A stretch of DNA of 64,000 nt. It comes from an uncultured Bacteroides sp. (GTDB lineage Bacteria > Bacteroidota > Bacteroidia > Bacteroidales > Bacteroidaceae). The position numbers and the translations under genes were made by a program. The notes below the pieces were generated by a model. That model was not told where the DNA came from. It searched no databases and saw nothing but the letters and a program-made list of their open reading frames with translations. The stretch spans positions 1 to 64,000 of the forward strand of contig CANSEY010000022.1 in the NCBI GenBank assembly GCA_947646015.1, given 5' to 3'. Below are positions 12,418 through 59,515 of the stretch, piece after piece. The first letter of the stretch is position 1, and the number at the start of each line of letters is the position of its first letter.

Positions 12418-14034
12418 ATGAAAAACAATATCAAATATATAGCAGGCATACTCTTAGGAGGATTGATCGGATTTTCAGCTTGTACTGATTCTTTTGAGTC
12501 GTTCAACACCAACGAAGCAGGATTCGATAATGATAGTAAAAAACAGGATTTCAATTATTATGGCATCCCTTTGGGAATCATTCAGCAAGGAATCTACTTC
12601 AACTACGACTGGGGAAGCGGCAAGAACTGGCCTTTTCAGACCATGCAAAACCTGGGGGCAGATCTATTCTCGGGATATGTGCATGACTTCAATCCCTTCA
12701 ACGAAGGAAAGAACAACAGCACTTACTACATGATGGACGGCTGGAACGGTTCTACATGGGATAACACCTATGGATACATTATGCCGGAAGTACAGAAATC
12801 AGAGACTATTAATGAAAAAGACAATATAGGATTCTTCGGTATTACCAAGATACTGAAAGTGGAATTAATGCACCGCTTATCCGACCTGTATGGACCGATC
12901 GTCTATACTCAGTTCGGATCAAAAACGGGTTCTACACCCGATACGCAACAAGAAGCATACAAAGCTTTCTTCAATGACCTGGATACAGGTATTGCCAAGA
13001 TACGTGAATATCAGAAAGCCAATCCGGACATTGAGAGTTTTGCAAAATTCGATATCCTGATGCCGCAGGGAAAACGCACATTCAGCGAATGGATACGGTT
13101 CGCAAATTCTCTCCGTCTGCGCCTGGCTGTCCGTATTGCCATGGCAGACTCTAAGCTGGCTGTGGCAGAAGCCCAAAAAGCACTTACGGATGAAGAAGGA
13201 TTGCTGGAAGGCAATGATGAAGTCGTAGCCGTTTCTACTTCATCAGGTTATACTAATCCTTTCGGAGAAATCAATAAAGCATGGGGCGAAGTGTTTATGA
13301 ACGCCAACATGGAGTCTCTATTAGTGGGTTACGAAGATCCCCGCATGGAAAAGTATTTTGATAAAGCAACCGGCTCTGATGCAACAAGCCTTATCGACTA
13401 TAAAGGTACTTACAAAGGTATCCGCCAAGGAACAGGCTTTAGTCATAAAAACTACAACGGACATTCAAAAAGTACCATTACCCAACAGACAGACGCCGTA
13501 CTGATGACTCCTGCCGAAGTATGGTTCCTGCGTGCCGAAGCAGCTCTGCGAGGCTGGAGCAGCGAATCGGTGAAGGATTGCTATGAAAAAGGCGTAAAAG
13601 CATCATTTGCACAATGGGGTGCTGCCGGTGCCGAAGCATATCTGGAGAGTGGCAGAAAGCCATCCGACTATGTAGACGCTTTCAAAGCAGCCAATAATGT
13701 GAAAGCGGTCAACACACTGACCCCCAAATGGGACGATGCCGCCGGCAATGAAGACAAGCTGGGACGCATCATTACACAGAAATGGCTTGCCATGTTCCCT
13801 GAAGGAGGAGAAGCTTGGGCAGAACAACGTCGTACAGGCTATCCGAGACTGTTCCCGGTATTGGTCAACCAAAGTGAAGGTACGGTAGATACCAACCTCG
13901 GACCACGTCGACTGAACTTCTTCGTAGGTATCAAAACGACCAATCCCGAGCAATATACCCAATTGGTAAATGCATTGGGCGGAATCGACAACTGCGGCAC
14001 TCGCCTGTGGTGGGACACCGGAAGAAATTTCTGA
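12418..14034 (+). CDS. SusD/RagB-family nutrient-binding lipoprotein
   Basis: A 538-residue outer-membrane lipoprotein that caps the SusC pore and binds the ligand. The signal peptide ends in a lipobox, LLGGLIGFSAC (Cys22). The body shows the helical repeats of the SusD fold (AYKAFFNDLDTGIAKIREYQ, FANSLRLRLAVRIAMADSKL, PAEVWFLRAEAALRGW, ITQKWLAMFPEGGEAWAEQR). The pattern fits the SusD-like group found beside STN-type SusC receptors rather than the classical starch SusD. It overlaps no gene and is followed by a terminator, so the ECF-FecR-SusC-SusD unit ends here. Ligand unknown. Family assignment is firm. Confidence 0.92.
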   Translation: MKNNIKYIAGILLGGLIGFSACTDSFESFNTNEAGFDNDSKKQDFNYYGIPLGIIQQGIYFNYDWGSGKNWPFQTMQNLGADLFSGYVHDFNPFNEGKNNSTYYMMDGWNGSTWDNTYGYIMPEVQKSETINEKDNIGFFGITKILKVELMHRLSDLYGPIVYTQFGSKTGSTPDTQQEAYKAFFNDLDTGIAKIREYQKANPDIESFAKFDILMPQGKRTFSEWIRFANSLRLRLAVRIAMADSKLAVAEAQKALTDEEGLLEGNDEVVAVSTSSGYTNPFGEINKAWGEVFMNANMESLLVGYEDPRMEKYFDKATGSDATSLIDYKGTYKGIRQGTGFSHKNYNGHSKSTITQQTDAVLMTPAEVWFLRAEAALRGWSSESVKDCYEKGVKASFAQWGAAGAEAYLESGRKPSDYVDAFKAANNVKAVNTLTPKWDDAAGNEDKLGRIITQKWLAMFPEGGEAWAEQRRTGYPRLFPVLVNQSEGTVDTNLGPRRLNFFVGIKTTNPEQYTQLVNALGGIDNCGTRLWWDTGRNF

Positions 14035-14104
14035 CACACAAAGGTATAAATTTTAATTAGTGGGTTTTCTTCGTATTAGTTGCGGGGAAAAGATTGGGAA
14101 GGGG

Positions 14105-14137
14105 CAAAGTCGAGGGGGACTTTGTCTCCTTTTTTAT
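14105..14137 (+). terminator. Terminator after SusD
   Basis: CAAAGTC pairs with GACTTTG around GAGGGG and is followed by TCTCC and seven T. Confidence 0.75.
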
Positions 14138-14225
14138 TAAAAACAGAATCAAAATAGCAAAGAATGAAGAATCCAGATCATGACCTATAACAGATTAACA
14201 ATAAGCATATTACTCGCCACAAGAC

Positions 14226-14384
14226 GTTTCAAAAGACGTTCGTCTGATGCAACAAAGATAAGATGCTTTTTTTACTTGTGCAAATCTTTTCGCATCGTTT
14301 TAATTATCAGTCATTTATCTATTCCCTTTGCATTTTGTACAGAGAGCAAGAATCCTGTTTCAAAAGACGAACGTCTTTTGAAAC
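14226..14384. promoter_or_regulatory. Invertible promoter segment 1 (Mpi-type inverted repeats)
   Basis: Perfect 20-bp inverted repeats GTTTCAAAAGACGTTCGTCT at 14226-14245 and (inverted) 14365-14384 enclose 119 bp. Each contains AGACGTTCGT, which fits the ARACGTWCGT core of B. fragilis Mpi-inverted promoters. The right repeat is part of a 28-bp near-palindrome (14357-14384). The enclosed segment holds a full promoter on the minus strand, pointing away from the fimbrillin gene at 14536. Inversion would put its -7 box at about 14350-14357 and transcription would start near 14364, 170 nt before the gene. A second, homologous segment precedes the next fimbrillin gene. Confidence 0.88.
14253..14284 (-). 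promoter_or_regulatory. Promoter inside invertible segment 1, OFF orientation
   Basis: On the minus strand TTTG (14281-14284), a 20-nt spacer and TATCTTTG (14253-14260) match the Bacteroides consensus exactly. It fires leftward, toward the SusD terminator, in this assembly. Confidence 0.85.
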
Positions 14385-14466
14385 ACCACCTGTGTATTCA
14401 AGACAGTTATATCTGATTGGAATACACAAACTTACGCATAATAAAAGTTGTATCAAACAGTCTTTA

Positions 14467-14494
14467 CCGACTTATACCCTTATGTATAAGTCGG
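14467..14494 (+). other. Hairpin in the leader of fimbrillin gene 1
   Basis: CCGACTTATAC pairs perfectly with GTATAAGTCGG around CCTTAT, between the right inverted repeat and the start codon. It has no U-tract, so it is probably a 5'UTR structure. Confidence 0.6.
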
Positions 14495-14535
14495 GCAAGA
14501 GATTTTGATCTGATTATTCATTAAATAAATTTAGA

Positions 14536-16155
14536 ATGAACAAACTTTTGATTATGCGGACACACCTCCTATGGATCGGAGTAATGACGGCATCCAGCCT
14601 TTGGTTGAGCGGATGCACGCAAGAAGAAAAGTATCCATTTTTTCCGGAAAAAGGTTATGATTCCGGTACTGTAATCCCTATTAAAATCAGTATGGCTGAA
14701 AATGGAGAGTACGATTCCTATACTCCGGAAAACGACATGCCTCCTCGTTACAATGCTCCTCTGATTGCCGAATGGGCAGGAGTACAAACTCTAAGCCGTA
14801 CCCGTACAAAAGAATCTCCGGAATATAATGGCCCCAGAATCGCATCTATGGAACTGACAGAAAATACTCCTTCCACCCTAACTACCCGTGCAAACACTCT
14901 GTCTACAGGTGTTTACTTTCGTCTGATCGTGTTCCGAAAGTCAGGGAATAACTATGTGTTCCAATCGGCTGCAGACTATACCTCAAATGGTGCTTCTTCA
15001 CCTGTACTGAAGAAAGGAAAATTACTCACACGCTCAGGAACGATCCGGGTCATCGGATACTCATTCAATACAACTGCGGCATTGGGGGATATCCCCGCAT
15101 CATATACATATAATACCACCAAGATAGATATCCCCAACATGAATAATGACTTTATGACTTATGATTCAGGAGACATAGCCAATGTGAACAGTCTTAATTA
15201 CAATCTTCCGGTAACATTCAAACAGAAACTGTGTAAACTGACAATAAGCATTAGTGTAACCGGCTTCACAAGTAATGCCATCAGCGGGTGTACAGGGGTA
15301 TACGTAAAGCAGGGAGGTAATTCAACCTCGTGGGTAATTGGCAGTTCGGCAGTGGCTGCTAATACCAGCAACACAGCTTCATTCAACCCAAACACTAACC
15401 AGACTACTACGATACACATGGTTCCTTTCGCAAGTTCCCGGACAATAACAGTACACTTCAACAAGCTGACAGTAGGAAATCTAATTGCTAATAATGCGGA
15501 TAATATCGATATTGCTTCAACTCAGAGTGTCCAATTGAAAGAGGGAATGAGCTATACAATGAAAATCCAGTTTAAGAGAAGCCCCGGAATAAATGTTCCG
15601 GCAGGTAGCATCAATCTGAGCAATCCGAAAAAAGCATGTACCAATGATGATAAGCAAAAGTTATCAAAATTGGTATTTGCCGACGGCAATTTAAAAAGTA
15701 CCGGTGCAAGCAACAATTATGTATGGGCAACCAACAAAGAATATGGCTACTATTACCAATGGAAAAAAGACTATAATGGAAACAACATCGATCCATGTGC
15801 CAGACTAAATCCCACAACTTATGGTAGTGGTTGGCGGCTACCTACACGCAATGAATTAGAAAGATTGGGAAGATGCAATAATGTAAAAAAGGTCTCTAAT
15901 GGAGTGAATGGTTTGTGGTTCCTAAATGCCACAACCGGTATTTTTTTACCGTTAGGTGGCTGGCGTAATAATAACTCGGGAACAACGGCAGAAGACTGGC
16001 CTGGAACGTTTGGTCAATATTTTACAGATGAATCAATTAATACTAATGATTGTTATAGATTGGATATATCTCCCGGTGAAGGTAAAACCGACGTCAATAG
16101 CACACCAAAGAAAATGGCATACACAACTCGTTGTGTCAAAGGACCTAAACTATAA
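14536..16155 (+). CDS. Fimbrillin-family lipoprotein 1
   Basis: A 539-residue predicted surface lipoprotein. The signal peptide ends in a lipobox, SLWLSGC (Cys27); a second ATG at codon 7 is an alternative start. Residues about 95-360 resemble the Bacteroidetes fimbrillin (Mfa-like) fold, with a conserved block GVYFRLIVFRKSGNNYVFQS and KQKLCKLTISISV. The C-terminal ~130 residues contain YGSGWRLPTRNELERLGR and LPLGGWRNN, resembling FISUMP-type (Fibrobacter succinogenes major paralogous) domains. It is a close paralogue of the product at 16874-18478. Expression is probably switched by the invertible promoter upstream, OFF in this assembly. Two hairpin terminators follow. Whether it is a pilus subunit, tip adhesin or anchored surface protein cannot be decided here. 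Confidence 0.85.
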   Translation: MNKLLIMRTHLLWIGVMTASSLWLSGCTQEEKYPFFPEKGYDSGTVIPIKISMAENGEYDSYTPENDMPPRYNAPLIAEWAGVQTLSRTRTKESPEYNGPRIASMELTENTPSTLTTRANTLSTGVYFRLIVFRKSGNNYVFQSAADYTSNGASSPVLKKGKLLTRSGTIRVIGYSFNTTAALGDIPASYTYNTTKIDIPNMNNDFMTYDSGDIANVNSLNYNLPVTFKQKLCKLTISISVTGFTSNAISGCTGVYVKQGGNSTSWVIGSSAVAANTSNTASFNPNTNQTTTIHMVPFASSRTITVHFNKLTVGNLIANNADNIDIASTQSVQLKEGMSYTMKIQFKRSPGINVPAGSINLSNPKKACTNDDKQKLSKLVFADGNLKSTGASNNYVWATNKEYGYYYQWKKDYNGNNIDPCARLNPTTYGSGWRLPTRNELERLGRCNNVKKVSNGVNGLWFLNATTGIFLPLGGWRNNNSGTTAEDWPGTFGQYFTDESINTNDCYRLDISPGEGKTDVNSTPKKMAYTTRCVKGPKL

Positions 16156-16192
16156 TATTTCCCCTTAAATATAAAGAAGAGTAAAAAAACAA

Positions 16193-16231
16193 AGACAGAA
16201 ACAGTGCTGATAATCCACTGTCTAATTTTTT
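16193..16231 (+). terminator. First terminator after fimbrillin 1
   Basis: CAGTG/CACTG, or alternatively AGACAG/CTGTCT, form a hairpin followed by AATTTTTTT. Confidence 0.7.
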
Positions 16232-16259
16232 TGGAGATATTCCGTAAATTACAAAACAC

Positions 16260-16296
16260 AAGGCAACTAATTCATTTCGAATCAGTTGCCTTATTT
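16260..16296 (+). terminator. Second terminator after fimbrillin 1
   Basis: AAGGCAACTAATTC pairs with GAATCAGTTGCCTT (one mismatch) followed by ATTTATATTTT. With the preceding hairpin it insulates the second fimbrillin locus from the first. Confidence 0.75.
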
Positions 16297-16567
16297 ATAT
16301 TTTAATCATTCCTCCCAAAAATTCAGAACGCCTCAATCGAAGGAAAAGTCTAAGACAAATCACCTACTATTAGATAGTCAGCACAATTCGTCAGGAATCT
16401 ATTATGAACCAGCTTTGCAAGCATTGCCATACCCTGGATACACCAAGTATTTCGATATTAGCAACCCTACATACTCTGATAGTAACCGTCCAAAAAGCAA
16501 GTATAAAGCTCAAACAAAAGAAATGTTCACTTCTCTAATAATAAATATCTTATGTTATAAGAATCAT
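16297..16567. other. Non-coding stretch before invertible segment 2
   Basis: I see no convincing gene, repeat or promoter here. One open frame (16286-16594) has no ribosome site and runs into the inverted repeat. Confidence 0.5.
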
Positions 16568-16726
16568 GTTTCAAAGGACGTACGTCTGATGTAACAAAGA
16601 TAAGACGCTTTTTTTATCTGTGCAAATCTTTTTGCATTGCTTTAATTATCAGAAGTTTATCGGCTCCCCTTGCATCCAGTGCGGAGGGTAAAAATAGTGT
16701 TTCAAAAAACGTACGTCTTTTGAAAC
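16568..16726. promoter_or_regulatory. Invertible promoter segment 2 (Mpi-type inverted repeats)
   Basis: GTTTCAAAGGACGTACGTCT (16568-16587) and its inverted partner at 16707-16726 match at 18 of 20 bases. Both contain ARACGTWCGT (AGACGTACGT and AAACGTACGT). Span (159 bp), interior sequence and distance to the gene closely match segment 1. The enclosed promoter points left, away from the fimbrillin gene at 16874. Inversion would put its -7 box at about 16692-16699. Confidence 0.87.
16595..16626 (-). promoter_or_regulatory. Promoter inside invertible segment 2, OFF orientation
   Basis: Minus-strand TTTG (16623-16626), a 20-nt spacer and TATCTTTG (16595-16602), the same geometry as segment 1. 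Confidence 0.85.
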
Positions 16727-16802
16727 ACAACAGGCGTTCTATCTGTCTAATTTACACAAACTTACTGCAAAATAAAAGCTGTATTCACAGCCTGCCATAG
16801 CC

Positions 16803-16829
16803 GGCCTGCCCATTCTTAATGGGAAGGCC
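16803..16829 (+). other. Hairpin in the leader of fimbrillin gene 2
   Basis: GGCC-TG-CCCATT pairs with AATGGG-AA-GGCC between the right inverted repeat and the start codon. It occupies the position of the leader hairpin of gene 1 but differs in sequence. Confidence 0.55.
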
Positions 16830-16873
16830 TTGCTGAGTATGATCTATTTTATTCATTTTTAAACATTTGAGTT

Positions 16874-18478
16874 ATGAATACGAAGACAAAACTTCTGTAT
16901 GTAGGCTTTCGTGCGTTAAACACATGCTGTCTGTACGCGGCTTTTTTAATGATAACATCGTGTGGCGACAATGTTGTGAACCCCGACAGCCCGGAACCGG
17001 ACGGGGAGGATATGATTCCTGTTACGGTCAGCCGGGTTGAGGATGGCAATTATATGGAAAGCCATGTTGATACTCCCGACACAACCGGGGGAAGAACGCT
17101 TGTAGACGAATGGGTGCCGGTGAAAGAGCCACCCGCCAGCAGGGCCATACCCGCTGCCGTGCCTTACGAGGGGCCTTCAGCGGTACGGATGACGCTCCGC
17201 GAAGAGCCACAGGTCACTACCCGTGCCGCTACATTGGGCAACGGCATTTATTTCCGGTTGATCGCTTTCCGTAAAGTAGGCAGCAATTACGTATTCCAGT
17301 CGGCTGCGGATTTTACGACAAACGGGGCTTCCGCTCCCACACTCAGGCAAGGAAATCTGCTCACCAGAGCAGGAACTGTCCGTGTGATCGGATACTCGTT
17401 CAATAGTACGGCAGGGATGGGAACGATCCCTTCATCCTATACTTATAACAGTACTTCCGTCACTATCCCGAATATGAACAGTGACTTTATGGTCTATGAC
17501 TCGGGGGACATAGCGAATGTGAGCACAATCAGCCACAACCTGTCGGTTAGTTTCACGCAAAAACTCTGCAAGCTGACGGTTAAACTCTCCTTGTCGCAGT
17601 TTGGGAGCAACACGTTTACCAACTGTACGGGGGTATACATTTCTCAGGGCGGCAATGCGTCTGCCTGGACGATAGGTCCCTCTACAAATAATGTAAGTGC
17701 CAATACCGGAAATACACCTACATTCAATATAGCCAATAATTCTACTGCCACTGTGCGGTTAGTTCCTTTTTCGGGTTCCCGGACGATCACGGTGCATATC
17801 GGTACGCTGACTCTCAGTAATTACTTCAATGCAAATAACCGGAATATCATCTCGAGTCAAAATGTCCAGTTGCTACCGGGAAAGAGTTATACCATTACGC
17901 TGAAGTTTGAATTGGGGATACAATTGGCGGCAAGTAACATTAACCTGACACAAAACGGATGCACAACGAATGATAAGAATGATTTGGCAAAGCTGAGATG
18001 GGCCACGGGAAATTTGAAGAGTACGGGAAGCACGAATTATATATGGGCACCTTCGCAGACAGAAATTGGGTATTACTACGCTTTCAATAAACTTTATAAT
18101 GGAAGCACCGGAGATCCGTGTTCTAAATTGAATACTGCATATTACGGTACAGGCTGGCGGACACCTTCTAAAAATGAACTGGAAAAACTGTCACGATGTA
18201 CAGATAAAGTGTTTACGAATAATGGTATGTGGTTTATGAATAAAAGCCTGGGGGTATTTTTAAAAGCTGGAGGAGTGCGACAGGAAAGTGGATCAGGCAC
18301 AAATGGAGCGACATATACAGATCATGGGTGTTACTGGACCTCGACAATAGGGACTAGTAAAAATGCTTATAATATGGAATTTTGGAACACAGAGGCACAT
18401 GTAAATAATACATCTTCTTGGTTTGGTCTCCAAACTAATGGTTTACTTATCCGTTGCGTAAAAGGTACCAAACAATAA
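16874..18478 (+). CDS. Fimbrillin-family lipoprotein 2
   Basis: A 534-residue paralogue of fimbrillin 1. The signal peptide ends LMITSC (Cys30), giving a lipoprotein. A Pro/Glu-rich linker (DNVVNPDSPEPDGED) and a fimbrillin-like fold follow, with GIYFRLIAFRKVGSNYVFQS and TQKLCKLTVKLSL matching the first protein closely. The C-terminal part has YGTGWRTPSKNELEKLSR and ends LLIRCVKGTKQ, parallel to RCVKGPKL in the first. Gene, leader and invertible promoter are all duplicated, pointing to a tandem duplication followed by divergence. An HU-like/Ig-like protein gene follows after 25 nt and is probably co-transcribed. The promoter is OFF in this assembly. Surface role inferred. Confidence 0.85.
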   Translation: MNTKTKLLYVGFRALNTCCLYAAFLMITSCGDNVVNPDSPEPDGEDMIPVTVSRVEDGNYMESHVDTPDTTGGRTLVDEWVPVKEPPASRAIPAAVPYEGPSAVRMTLREEPQVTTRAATLGNGIYFRLIAFRKVGSNYVFQSAADFTTNGASAPTLRQGNLLTRAGTVRVIGYSFNSTAGMGTIPSSYTYNSTSVTIPNMNSDFMVYDSGDIANVSTISHNLSVSFTQKLCKLTVKLSLSQFGSNTFTNCTGVYISQGGNASAWTIGPSTNNVSANTGNTPTFNIANNSTATVRLVPFSGSRTITVHIGTLTLSNYFNANNRNIISSQNVQLLPGKSYTITLKFELGIQLAASNINLTQNGCTTNDKNDLAKLRWATGNLKSTGSTNYIWAPSQTEIGYYYAFNKLYNGSTGDPCSKLNTAYYGTGWRTPSKNELEKLSRCTDKVFTNNGMWFMNKSLGVFLKAGGVRQESGSGTNGATYTDHGCYWTSTIGTSKNAYNMEFWNTEAHVNNTSSWFGLQTNGLLIRCVKGTKQ

Positions 18479-18503: not shown

Positions 18504-19262
18504 ATGAAAACCGAACTCAAAGGCTGGCTTGCGGACAATACCGTGACCACCGACAACAAAGAAGACAAAATCCTGGTATTGGAAAGCGCCGGAAACCTGA
18601 CACTATCCGATGTACTGGATGAAATGAAGAAAGAAGATACCGGCTTGCGGGCAGAGACTTTAAAGCATGCCGTCGATCTTTTTCAGCGTACAGTATCGGA
18701 ATTGGTACTGAACGGATACTCTGTCAATACGGGGTTATTCCGTGCTGTTCCCCAGTTTCGCGGTGTAATAGACGGTGGAGTATGGAATCCTGAGAGAAAT
18801 TCTATCTATGTTTCCTTCAATCAGGATAAGGATTTACGTGAAGCTATCGCACGGACCGGCGTAAAAATCCTAGGAGCCAAAGGCGATTCAGCCTATTTTA
18901 TCGGTGGTGAAGACGCCGCCACCCGTGCTACGGACGGTAGTGCAACTGCAGGACGTAACTATCGCTTACAAGGCAAGAACATCAAAGTAGCAGGTACAGA
19001 TCCTGCTGTAGGTATCGTCTTGATTGATGAAAAAGGCACGGAAACGAAGCTACCGATGGATATGATAGCAGTAAACAACCCTTCGGAAGTATTGGTGCTA
19101 CTTCCTGCCGACTTGAAAGACGGAATATACAAACTGCGACTGACCACACAATATACCAGTGGCAACCGGCAACTGAAGACACCACATGTCATCAGCCAAA
19201 CCATCGTAATAGGCAATACAACCGAGGGCGACGGAGATATTGTGGATGACCCGACAGCATAA
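18504..19262 (+). CDS. HU-like DNA-binding domain plus Ig-like C-terminal domain (DUF4469-type)
   Basis: A 252-residue protein without signal peptide. The N-terminal ~120 residues resemble an IHF/HU-like fold found in Bacteroidetes (LTLSDVLDEMKKEDTGLRAE, NGYSVNTGLFRAVPQFRGVI). The C-terminal part from about 150 (YRLQGKNIKVAGTDPAVGIV ... DGIYKLRLTTQYTSG) looks like the beta-sandwich of DUF4469. It ends GDGDIVDDPTA, a tail shared with the separate HU-like protein at 45804-46265. The gene starts 25 nt after fimbrillin 2 and ends before a large nested hairpin. If co-transcribed it would be phase-variable together with the surface protein. Whether it binds DNA is not known; family similarity is moderately sure. 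Confidence 0.8.
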   Translation: MKTELKGWLADNTVTTDNKEDKILVLESAGNLTLSDVLDEMKKEDTGLRAETLKHAVDLFQRTVSELVLNGYSVNTGLFRAVPQFRGVIDGGVWNPERNSIYVSFNQDKDLREAIARTGVKILGAKGDSAYFIGGEDAATRATDGSATAGRNYRLQGKNIKVAGTDPAVGIVLIDEKGTETKLPMDMIAVNNPSEVLVLLPADLKDGIYKLRLTTQYTSGNRQLKTPHVISQTIVIGNTTEGDGDIVDDPTA

Positions 19263-51130: not shown

Positions 51131-51226
51131 CTCACCACAGATTACACAGATTCTCACAGAACTTTTAATCTTATTATCGATAAAGTAAATCATTAATCTA
51201 TGAGAATCTGTGTAATCTGTGGTGAA
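51131..51226. repeat. TTCACCACAGA inverted-repeat element, copy 3
   Basis: The arms at 51134-51156 and 51201-51223 pair perfectly over 23 bp (ACCACAGATTACACAGAT... with its complement) around a 44-bp A/T-rich loop. It is the best-preserved copy, between gcvH and purE. Confidence 0.9.
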
Positions 51227-53667: not shown

Positions 53668-53715
53668 TTCTTGTGGACGATGGATAACCGTTACCTCAAA
53701 GAGAGTATATCATAG

Positions 53716-53810
53716 TTCACCACAGATCGCACAGATTTACACAAAACGATTTTTAATCTACTGACAATCAATAATATTTATCTGTGCAAATCCGTGTAAT
53801 CTGTGGTGAA
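53716..53810. repeat. TTCACCACAGA inverted-repeat element, copy 4
   Basis: TTCACCACAGATCGCACAGA at the left and GTGTAATCTGTGGTGAA at the right. It lies between convergent ispG and the esterase gene, where it may act as a terminator. Confidence 0.85.
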
Positions 53811-53859
53811 TACGAATTTTGACTTCCTCTTTAAATAGTATACTTAACTATAAAGTTCT

Positions 53860-59403: not shown

Positions 59404-59418
59404 TGTAATGGTTTTGGG

Positions 59419-59515
59419 TTCACCACAGAGTAACACAGGGTCTCACAGAGTTTAATCTCATAGAATGTTTAAAAGGAAATCATCTCTGTGAGACTCTGTG
59501 TTACTCTGTGGTAAA
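59419..59515. repeat. TTCACCACAGA inverted-repeat element, copy 5, between susC and susD
   Basis: The arms 59422-59450 and 59484-59512 pair at 28 of 29 bases around a 33-bp loop. It fills the susC-susD gap of the PUL, so the mRNA would carry a 29-bp hairpin between the two genes. Confidence 0.9.

Follow-up and report, generated by a model that had tools for sequence, protein, structure and literature searches.

The window analysed here is a 64,000-nucleotide stretch of DNA from an uncultured Bacteroides sp. (assembly GCA_947646015.1, contig CANSEY010000022.1). Within it a susD-like gene (12418-14034) is followed by two paralogous genes for predicted surface lipoproteins, each preceded by a putative invertible promoter (inverton) and a leader, and the coordinates of these features are collected in Table 1. 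The first inverton is bounded by perfect inverted repeats of 20 bp, complementary at 20 of 20 positions, with 119 bp between them, and the core ARACGTWCGT that marks Mpi-type sites is present in both arms. When the arms are extended to 30-mers they match at 26 of 30 positions, and the right one forms a palindrome of 14 + 2 + 14 bases. The core, for which the consensus of the initial annotation was used, occurs five times in the window, two of these occurrences being the arms of the first locus, against an expectation of 0.41, and 0 of 100 dinucleotide shuffles reach five. Similarly, a search for 16-bp perfect inverted repeats allowing loops of up to 500 bp gives 20 overlapping 16-mers in the window, five from the first-locus pair and the remaining 15 from four other places, while no such repeat was found in 20 Markov-1 sequences of window length. 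The initial annotation had described 20-bp repeats with the core in both arms, enclosing 119 bp and a full Bacteroides promoter directed away from the gene, and the sequence confirms exactly both the repeats and the minus-strand promoter.

Table 1. Features of the two lipoprotein loci in the window
Feature	Position	Strand	Remarks
Left arm, first inverton, GTTTCAAAAGACGTTCGTCT	14226-14245	+	Mpi-type site, core AGACGTTCGT; 30-bp site 14225-14254
Bacteroides-type promoter TTTG-N20-TATCTTTG, TTTGCACAAGTAAAAAAAGCATCTTATCTTTG	14284 down to 14253	-	Spacer 20; aimed away from the gene at 14536 (OFF)
Right arm, first inverton, AGACGAACGTCTTTTGAAAC	14365-14384	-	Within palindromic 30-bp site 14356-14385
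Conserved leader, first gene	14386-14535	+	Element ACAAACTTACGCATAATAAAAG at 14426-14447; 11-bp-stem hairpin 14467-14494
Predicted surface lipoprotein, 539 aa	14536-16155	+	Lipobox LSGC then TQEE; candidate fimbrillin-like fold about 93-348; Lcl_C/FISUMP-like C-terminal domain
Second inverton	16567-16727	.	Arms 16567-16596 and 16698-16727; both arms centred on a palindromic TA; absent from the initial annotation
Promoter of second inverton, TTTG-N20-TATCTTTG	16595-16626	-	OFF too
Leader, second gene	16728-16873	+	Element ACAAACTTACTGCAAAATAAAAG at 16756-16778; possible hairpin at chance level
Paralogous predicted lipoprotein, 534 aa	16874-18478	+	48% identical to the 539-aa protein

By searching with the 159-bp inverton we found seven full-length homologues in the window's own assembly (G000) and 18 more in three relatives, five in G017, four in G018 and nine in G023, making 25 in four genomes of the B. 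fragilis group. We take G017, from the primer matches described below, to be probably strain NCTC 9343. The first inverton of the window is 100% identical to its G017 copy and 79-86% alike in the other members, and the region around it is 99.3% identical to G017 over 19,001 bp. Upstream of each of 24 family genes lie two 30-bp arms that agree with each other at 24 to 27 of 30 positions. A scan of genome_contigs returned two loci, in B. fragilis S82 and Q1F2, which lie on the same contigs as G018 and G023 and are both OFF, and the phage and plasmid collections yielded no relative of the 159-bp inverton. Consensus promoter matches number eight in the window against 1.54 expected, so that a single match is weak by itself; a homologous promoter is present in each of 24 invertons examined. 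Another consensus match, at 14457-14427 on the minus strand in the first leader, overlaps the complement of the leader element and also faces away from the gene. On these two grounds it was rejected as a candidate; its homologue is present in 13 of 24 loci. Three loci (L057, L068 and L070) have a second consensus match within the inverton.

Of the 25 family invertons, 24 have their promoter directed away from the gene and one has it directed toward the gene. This sole ON sibling (G000:C2:384775-384933, seen in L041 and L080) is one of the seven in the window's own assembly, but it ends 39 bp from the end of its contig, where an assembly error is likelier, and thus provides good but imperfect evidence of inversion. 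Contig G018:C13 also stops 91 bp past an inverton, and contigs may tend to break at switches of this family; for G018:C13:158760, the start of whose gene lies past the contig end, the OFF state was taken from the direction of the leader element. The initial annotation regarded the first locus as captured OFF in this assembly, which is borne out by the sole consensus promoter inside the repeats, facing away from the gene, and by the one sibling in the opposite state. It had also suggested comparing strains for the inverted form of this locus; the comparison did not reveal it, the first locus being OFF in all four genomes that carry the family. No stretch of viral_contigs, a poor place to look, showed the ON form of any family member.

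A leader lies between each inverton of the window and its gene. The leader element ACAAACTTAC-N(1-2)-CANAATAAAAG is present at every inverton of three of the genomes (7 of 7, 5 of 5 and 4 of 4) and at 8 of 9 in the fourth, and these genomes contain it at no other place. Leader alignments comprised 12 of 13 and 10 of 11 leaders. The first leader folds much better than its shuffles (z -5.8), and all 110 cells of its aligned hairpin are paired; two pairs are changed on both sides, a result reached by 118 of 500 shuffles, while the covariation score exceeds that of 500 of 500 shuffles, which ignore relatedness. The candidate hairpin of the second leader was set aside because its covariation is no better than that of shuffles (239 of 500). 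In the region 14000-17000, Rfam gave only one sub-threshold match to an animal microRNA, outside the leaders.

The 539-aa protein has a lipoprotein signal with acidic residues behind the cysteine (LSGC-TQEE), a loose fit to the surface-export signal described in the accessible part of PMC12632263, and the lipoproteins would be displayed on the cell surface. The initial annotation had called it a fimbrillin, a label that stands in part: residues 93-348 of a low-confidence structure model resemble solved fimbrial proteins of the Bacteroidales, but no fimbrillin family model passed in Pfam (E 0.001) or NCBIfam (E 0.1), only Lcl_C and FISUMP match, both below cut-off, and the top VIA match is the C-terminal domain of Legionella Lcl. 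Alignment A1 had no sequence relatives in the PDB at E up to 1. Twenty-four of the 25 invertons precede a full-length member of this one protein family, the gene of the other starting beyond the contig end. An internal TAA interrupts one of these 24 genes, and a single family fragment lies at a contig edge of G018. The protein alignment includes 22 of the 24 full-length genes, omitting the gene with the internal stop and a near-copy of the window's second gene. Full-length members occur in only 4 of 158 genomes of the genus, five others giving weak C-terminal matches (E 1.5e-4 to 9.9e-4), and a profile search at E up to 1e-10 likewise found the family in 4 of 157 genus genomes, besides one C-terminal match in G017. 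The first protein contains no copy of the Bacteroides O-glycosylation motif D(S/T)(A/I/L/M/T/V), as given in the portion of PMC3949742 available to us, and the second contains one. The gene behind the second lipoprotein (18504-19262) encodes an HU-like DNA-binding domain and DUF4469.

The sites that bound the first inverton closely resemble those of capsule promoters. G017 contains seven exact-core pairs 178-205 bp apart, six before UpxY-like genes and one before an SLBB/Poly_export protein. A NusG domain is confirmed for one UpxY-type gene (L148), and the other five we presume to be such genes from their first residues and an UpxZ-like gene behind. A seventh UpxY-type promoter was not found in six further G017 stretches with core matches. 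The palindromic right site of the window is identical at 30 of 30 positions to one arm of the UpxY-type promoter L151 and at 28 of 30 to one arm of the G017 PSA promoter, while the best background match among 1876 stretches is 20 of 30. The six UpxY-type promoters have 12 arms, of which eleven match this site at 23-30 of 30 positions and the twelfth at 20 of 30. This indicates that, judged by sequence, the window's site is of the type found at most capsule-type promoters. Both arms of the seventh pair, L147, match at 17-18 of 30, that is, at background level. L147 (G017:C1:1442470-1442671) has Mpi-like cores with palindromic TA centres and differs from the other capsule-type sites outside the core; it lies between divergent genes, one of them encoding the SLBB/Poly_export protein, which leaves its promoter directed at either of the two. 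In G017 the ON orientation is found at two of the six UpxY-type promoters versus none of the five lipoprotein-family invertons. The PSA primers listed in the accessible text of PMC10939037 fall at the G017 pair of L096, a pair that L148 also contains, and both mpi primers from that source match within the G017 resolvase L090, an intact mpi gene. Its product passes the NCBIfam model NF009949, 'master DNA invertase Mpi family', with 318.5 bits against a cut-off of 272.

An mpi gene 97-100% identical to the query is present in the three relatives G017, G018 and G023. The search of the window's own assembly yielded no intact mpi. The best match there is a frameshifted serine recombinase of the Mpi family, 52% identical (G000:C51:12398-12826, L031/L111), the only one of four resolvase pieces scanned to pass the Mpi model cut-off. 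The G017 mpi gene as query gave no match in this assembly, and the neighbourhood of mpi in G017 matches only contig C40, at 69-80% in long pieces. Since the assembly is 74.7% complete, this absence proves little and is most simply a gap in the assembly, the alternative being a loss of mpi. The whole assembly has 41 PF00589 and five PF00239 matches, none of them on C22, the window's contig, which is consistent with an enzyme that acts at a distance. Copies of a dispersed repeat, each about 95 bp long, lie at 51132-51226, 53710-53812 and 59417-59512; the repeat recurs at other places in the assembly, and in the G017 stretch that holds mpi it is found beside that gene or elsewhere.

These results make it very probable that the first locus is an ON/OFF phase-variation switch in which Mpi inverts the promoter of the lipoprotein gene. 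The initial annotation had proposed such an Mpi-type switch, and the site identities with L151 and the PSA promoter support it. In the proposed mechanism Mpi, encoded elsewhere on the chromosome, would bind both 30-bp sites, cut at their centres and invert the segment between them. In the assembled orientation transcription from the promoter would run to the left, in the direction of the end of the susD-like gene, leaving the lipoprotein gene silent; after inversion the promoter, which would then map to 14326-14357 on the plus strand, would transcribe a leader of about 170 nt and then the gene. Both the inversion at this locus, with the phase-variable expression that would follow from it, and the silence of the gene in the OFF orientation are what we infer from this arrangement, and the assignment to Mpi likewise comes from sequence likeness. 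With two such units in the window and at least seven in the assembly, each before a paralogous predicted surface lipoprotein, a population could display a changing set of surface lipoproteins.

Of the competing explanations, the one that survives best, although improbable, is a former switch now stuck OFF, whose sites have been kept by descent while inversion was lost or the strain came to lack Mpi. It would account for 24 of 25 family members being OFF and for the missing intact mpi in this assembly, but it agrees poorly with the ON sibling in the same assembly, with the complete identity of the inverton to its G017 copy against 79-86% in other members, and with the mpi gene retained in three relatives. 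A strong OFF bias is also compatible with a live switch; for example, BT1927 expression occurs in about 1 of every 1,000 wild-type cells according to the available part of PMC12548429. Slightly less probable still is that inversion occurs through another recombinase, either a tyrosine recombinase of the Tsr type or a different serine recombinase. The 41 PF00589 and five PF00239 matches offer candidates, and B. fragilis has the further global invertases Tsr0667 and Tsr19 (PMC4747536, in part); however, none is encoded on C22, and the site is that of capsule-type promoters, which the accessible portions of PMC4747536 and PMC5903667 assign to Mpi. That the repeats are instead a regulator site or a hairpin terminator or insulator, with the promoter making a leftward antisense transcript, is highly improbable: the palindromic right arm and a promoter reading toward the 3' end of the susD-like gene would suit it, but the ON sibling is best explained by inversion and both arms match sites of capsule-type invertible promoters.

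How one invertase could serve such closely spaced switches may be related to the centres of their sites. Thirteen of the 25 invertons have the central dinucleotides TT/AA, and the other 12 have TA/TA. Neighbours separated by less than 5 kb carry unlike centres (TT versus TA) in 12 of 13 adjacent pairs, the single exception being G023:C1:4564318/4566745. Several of these 13 pairs are orthologous, so that 12 of 13 overstates the support for alternation; a rough guess made without a tree is 6 of 7 independent pairs. The two classes also differ in their cores. Both arms have an exact core in 11 of the 12 TA members; among the 13 TT members this holds for two, the first locus of the window and the copy of it in G017, and in the other 11 one arm deviates from ARACGTWCGT. 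Serine recombinases require matching central overlaps, as is established for other members of this group, and differing centres could therefore stop neighbouring switches from recombining with each other. We tentatively speculate, while considering it rather unlikely, that the centre bases insulate tandem Mpi switches and that the leader adds a second control step after the promoter has turned ON. If insulation is real, Mpi could flip each promoter alone, and the gene between two switches would be neither deleted nor inverted; because the centre is without polarity in the TA class, some other feature would then be needed there to choose inversion over deletion. Such an arrangement would explain how one global invertase can act on close and nearly identical switches while the genes that separate them stay in place, and it would make a general question on serine invertases testable.

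This switch belongs to a kind that is already known, for the Mpi regulon is a familiar way in which B. fragilis varies its surface. Mpi is described as a serine invertase that acts globally, on at least 13 target regions (PMC4747536 and PMC5903667, in the parts available), and the initial annotation's premise that it inverts both capsule and other promoters agrees with the count of 13 regions, seven of them for polysaccharides, given in the former. By eye we identified 12 pairs in G017 (six UpxY-type, one SLBB/Poly_export and five of the lipoprotein family) versus these 13. The accessible text of PMC3090145 mentions 16 fin promoters besides those of the polysaccharide loci. Our literature search found no paper that names the lipoprotein inverton family, although it did not reach the two original papers on Mpi regions and fin promoters, and the portions of PMC3949742, PMC4319957 and PMC8698959 that were available hold nothing bearing on it. 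The five G017 family invertons are very likely among the non-capsule Mpi or fin regions of NCTC 9343, and most likely the first locus already appears in the tables of those two papers. Those regions were reportedly described by Coyne in 2003 and by Cerdeno-Tarraga in 2005.

Comparison with the seven Mpi-controlled capsular polysaccharide promoters of B. fragilis reveals the same kind of 30-bp site, the same core and the same inner TTTG/TAnnTTTG promoter. The lipoprotein family differs from them in its core spacing, 131-133 bp versus 178-205 bp, and in the gene downstream, which encodes a lipoprotein rather than UpxY. None of the seven stretches (L094-L100) that surround the capsule-type pairs of G017 contains its leader element, and in all 25 family members it is the arm through which the promoter exits that is less perfect, versus 4 of 6 UpxY-type promoters. 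Similar arrangements have been reported elsewhere. In a defined gut community, genes for 'fimbrillin family protein' are among those enriched next to certain inverton groups (PMC11892184, accessible part), and in B. thetaiotaomicron the BT1927 S-layer lipoproteins are likewise surface lipoproteins behind invertible promoters that are mostly OFF (PMC12548429, in part), a likeness in arrangement. The present analysis thus places the two lipoprotein genes of the window in the best-studied DNA-inversion regulon of a gut commensal, in which one type of site is common to the promoters of capsules and of surface proteins.
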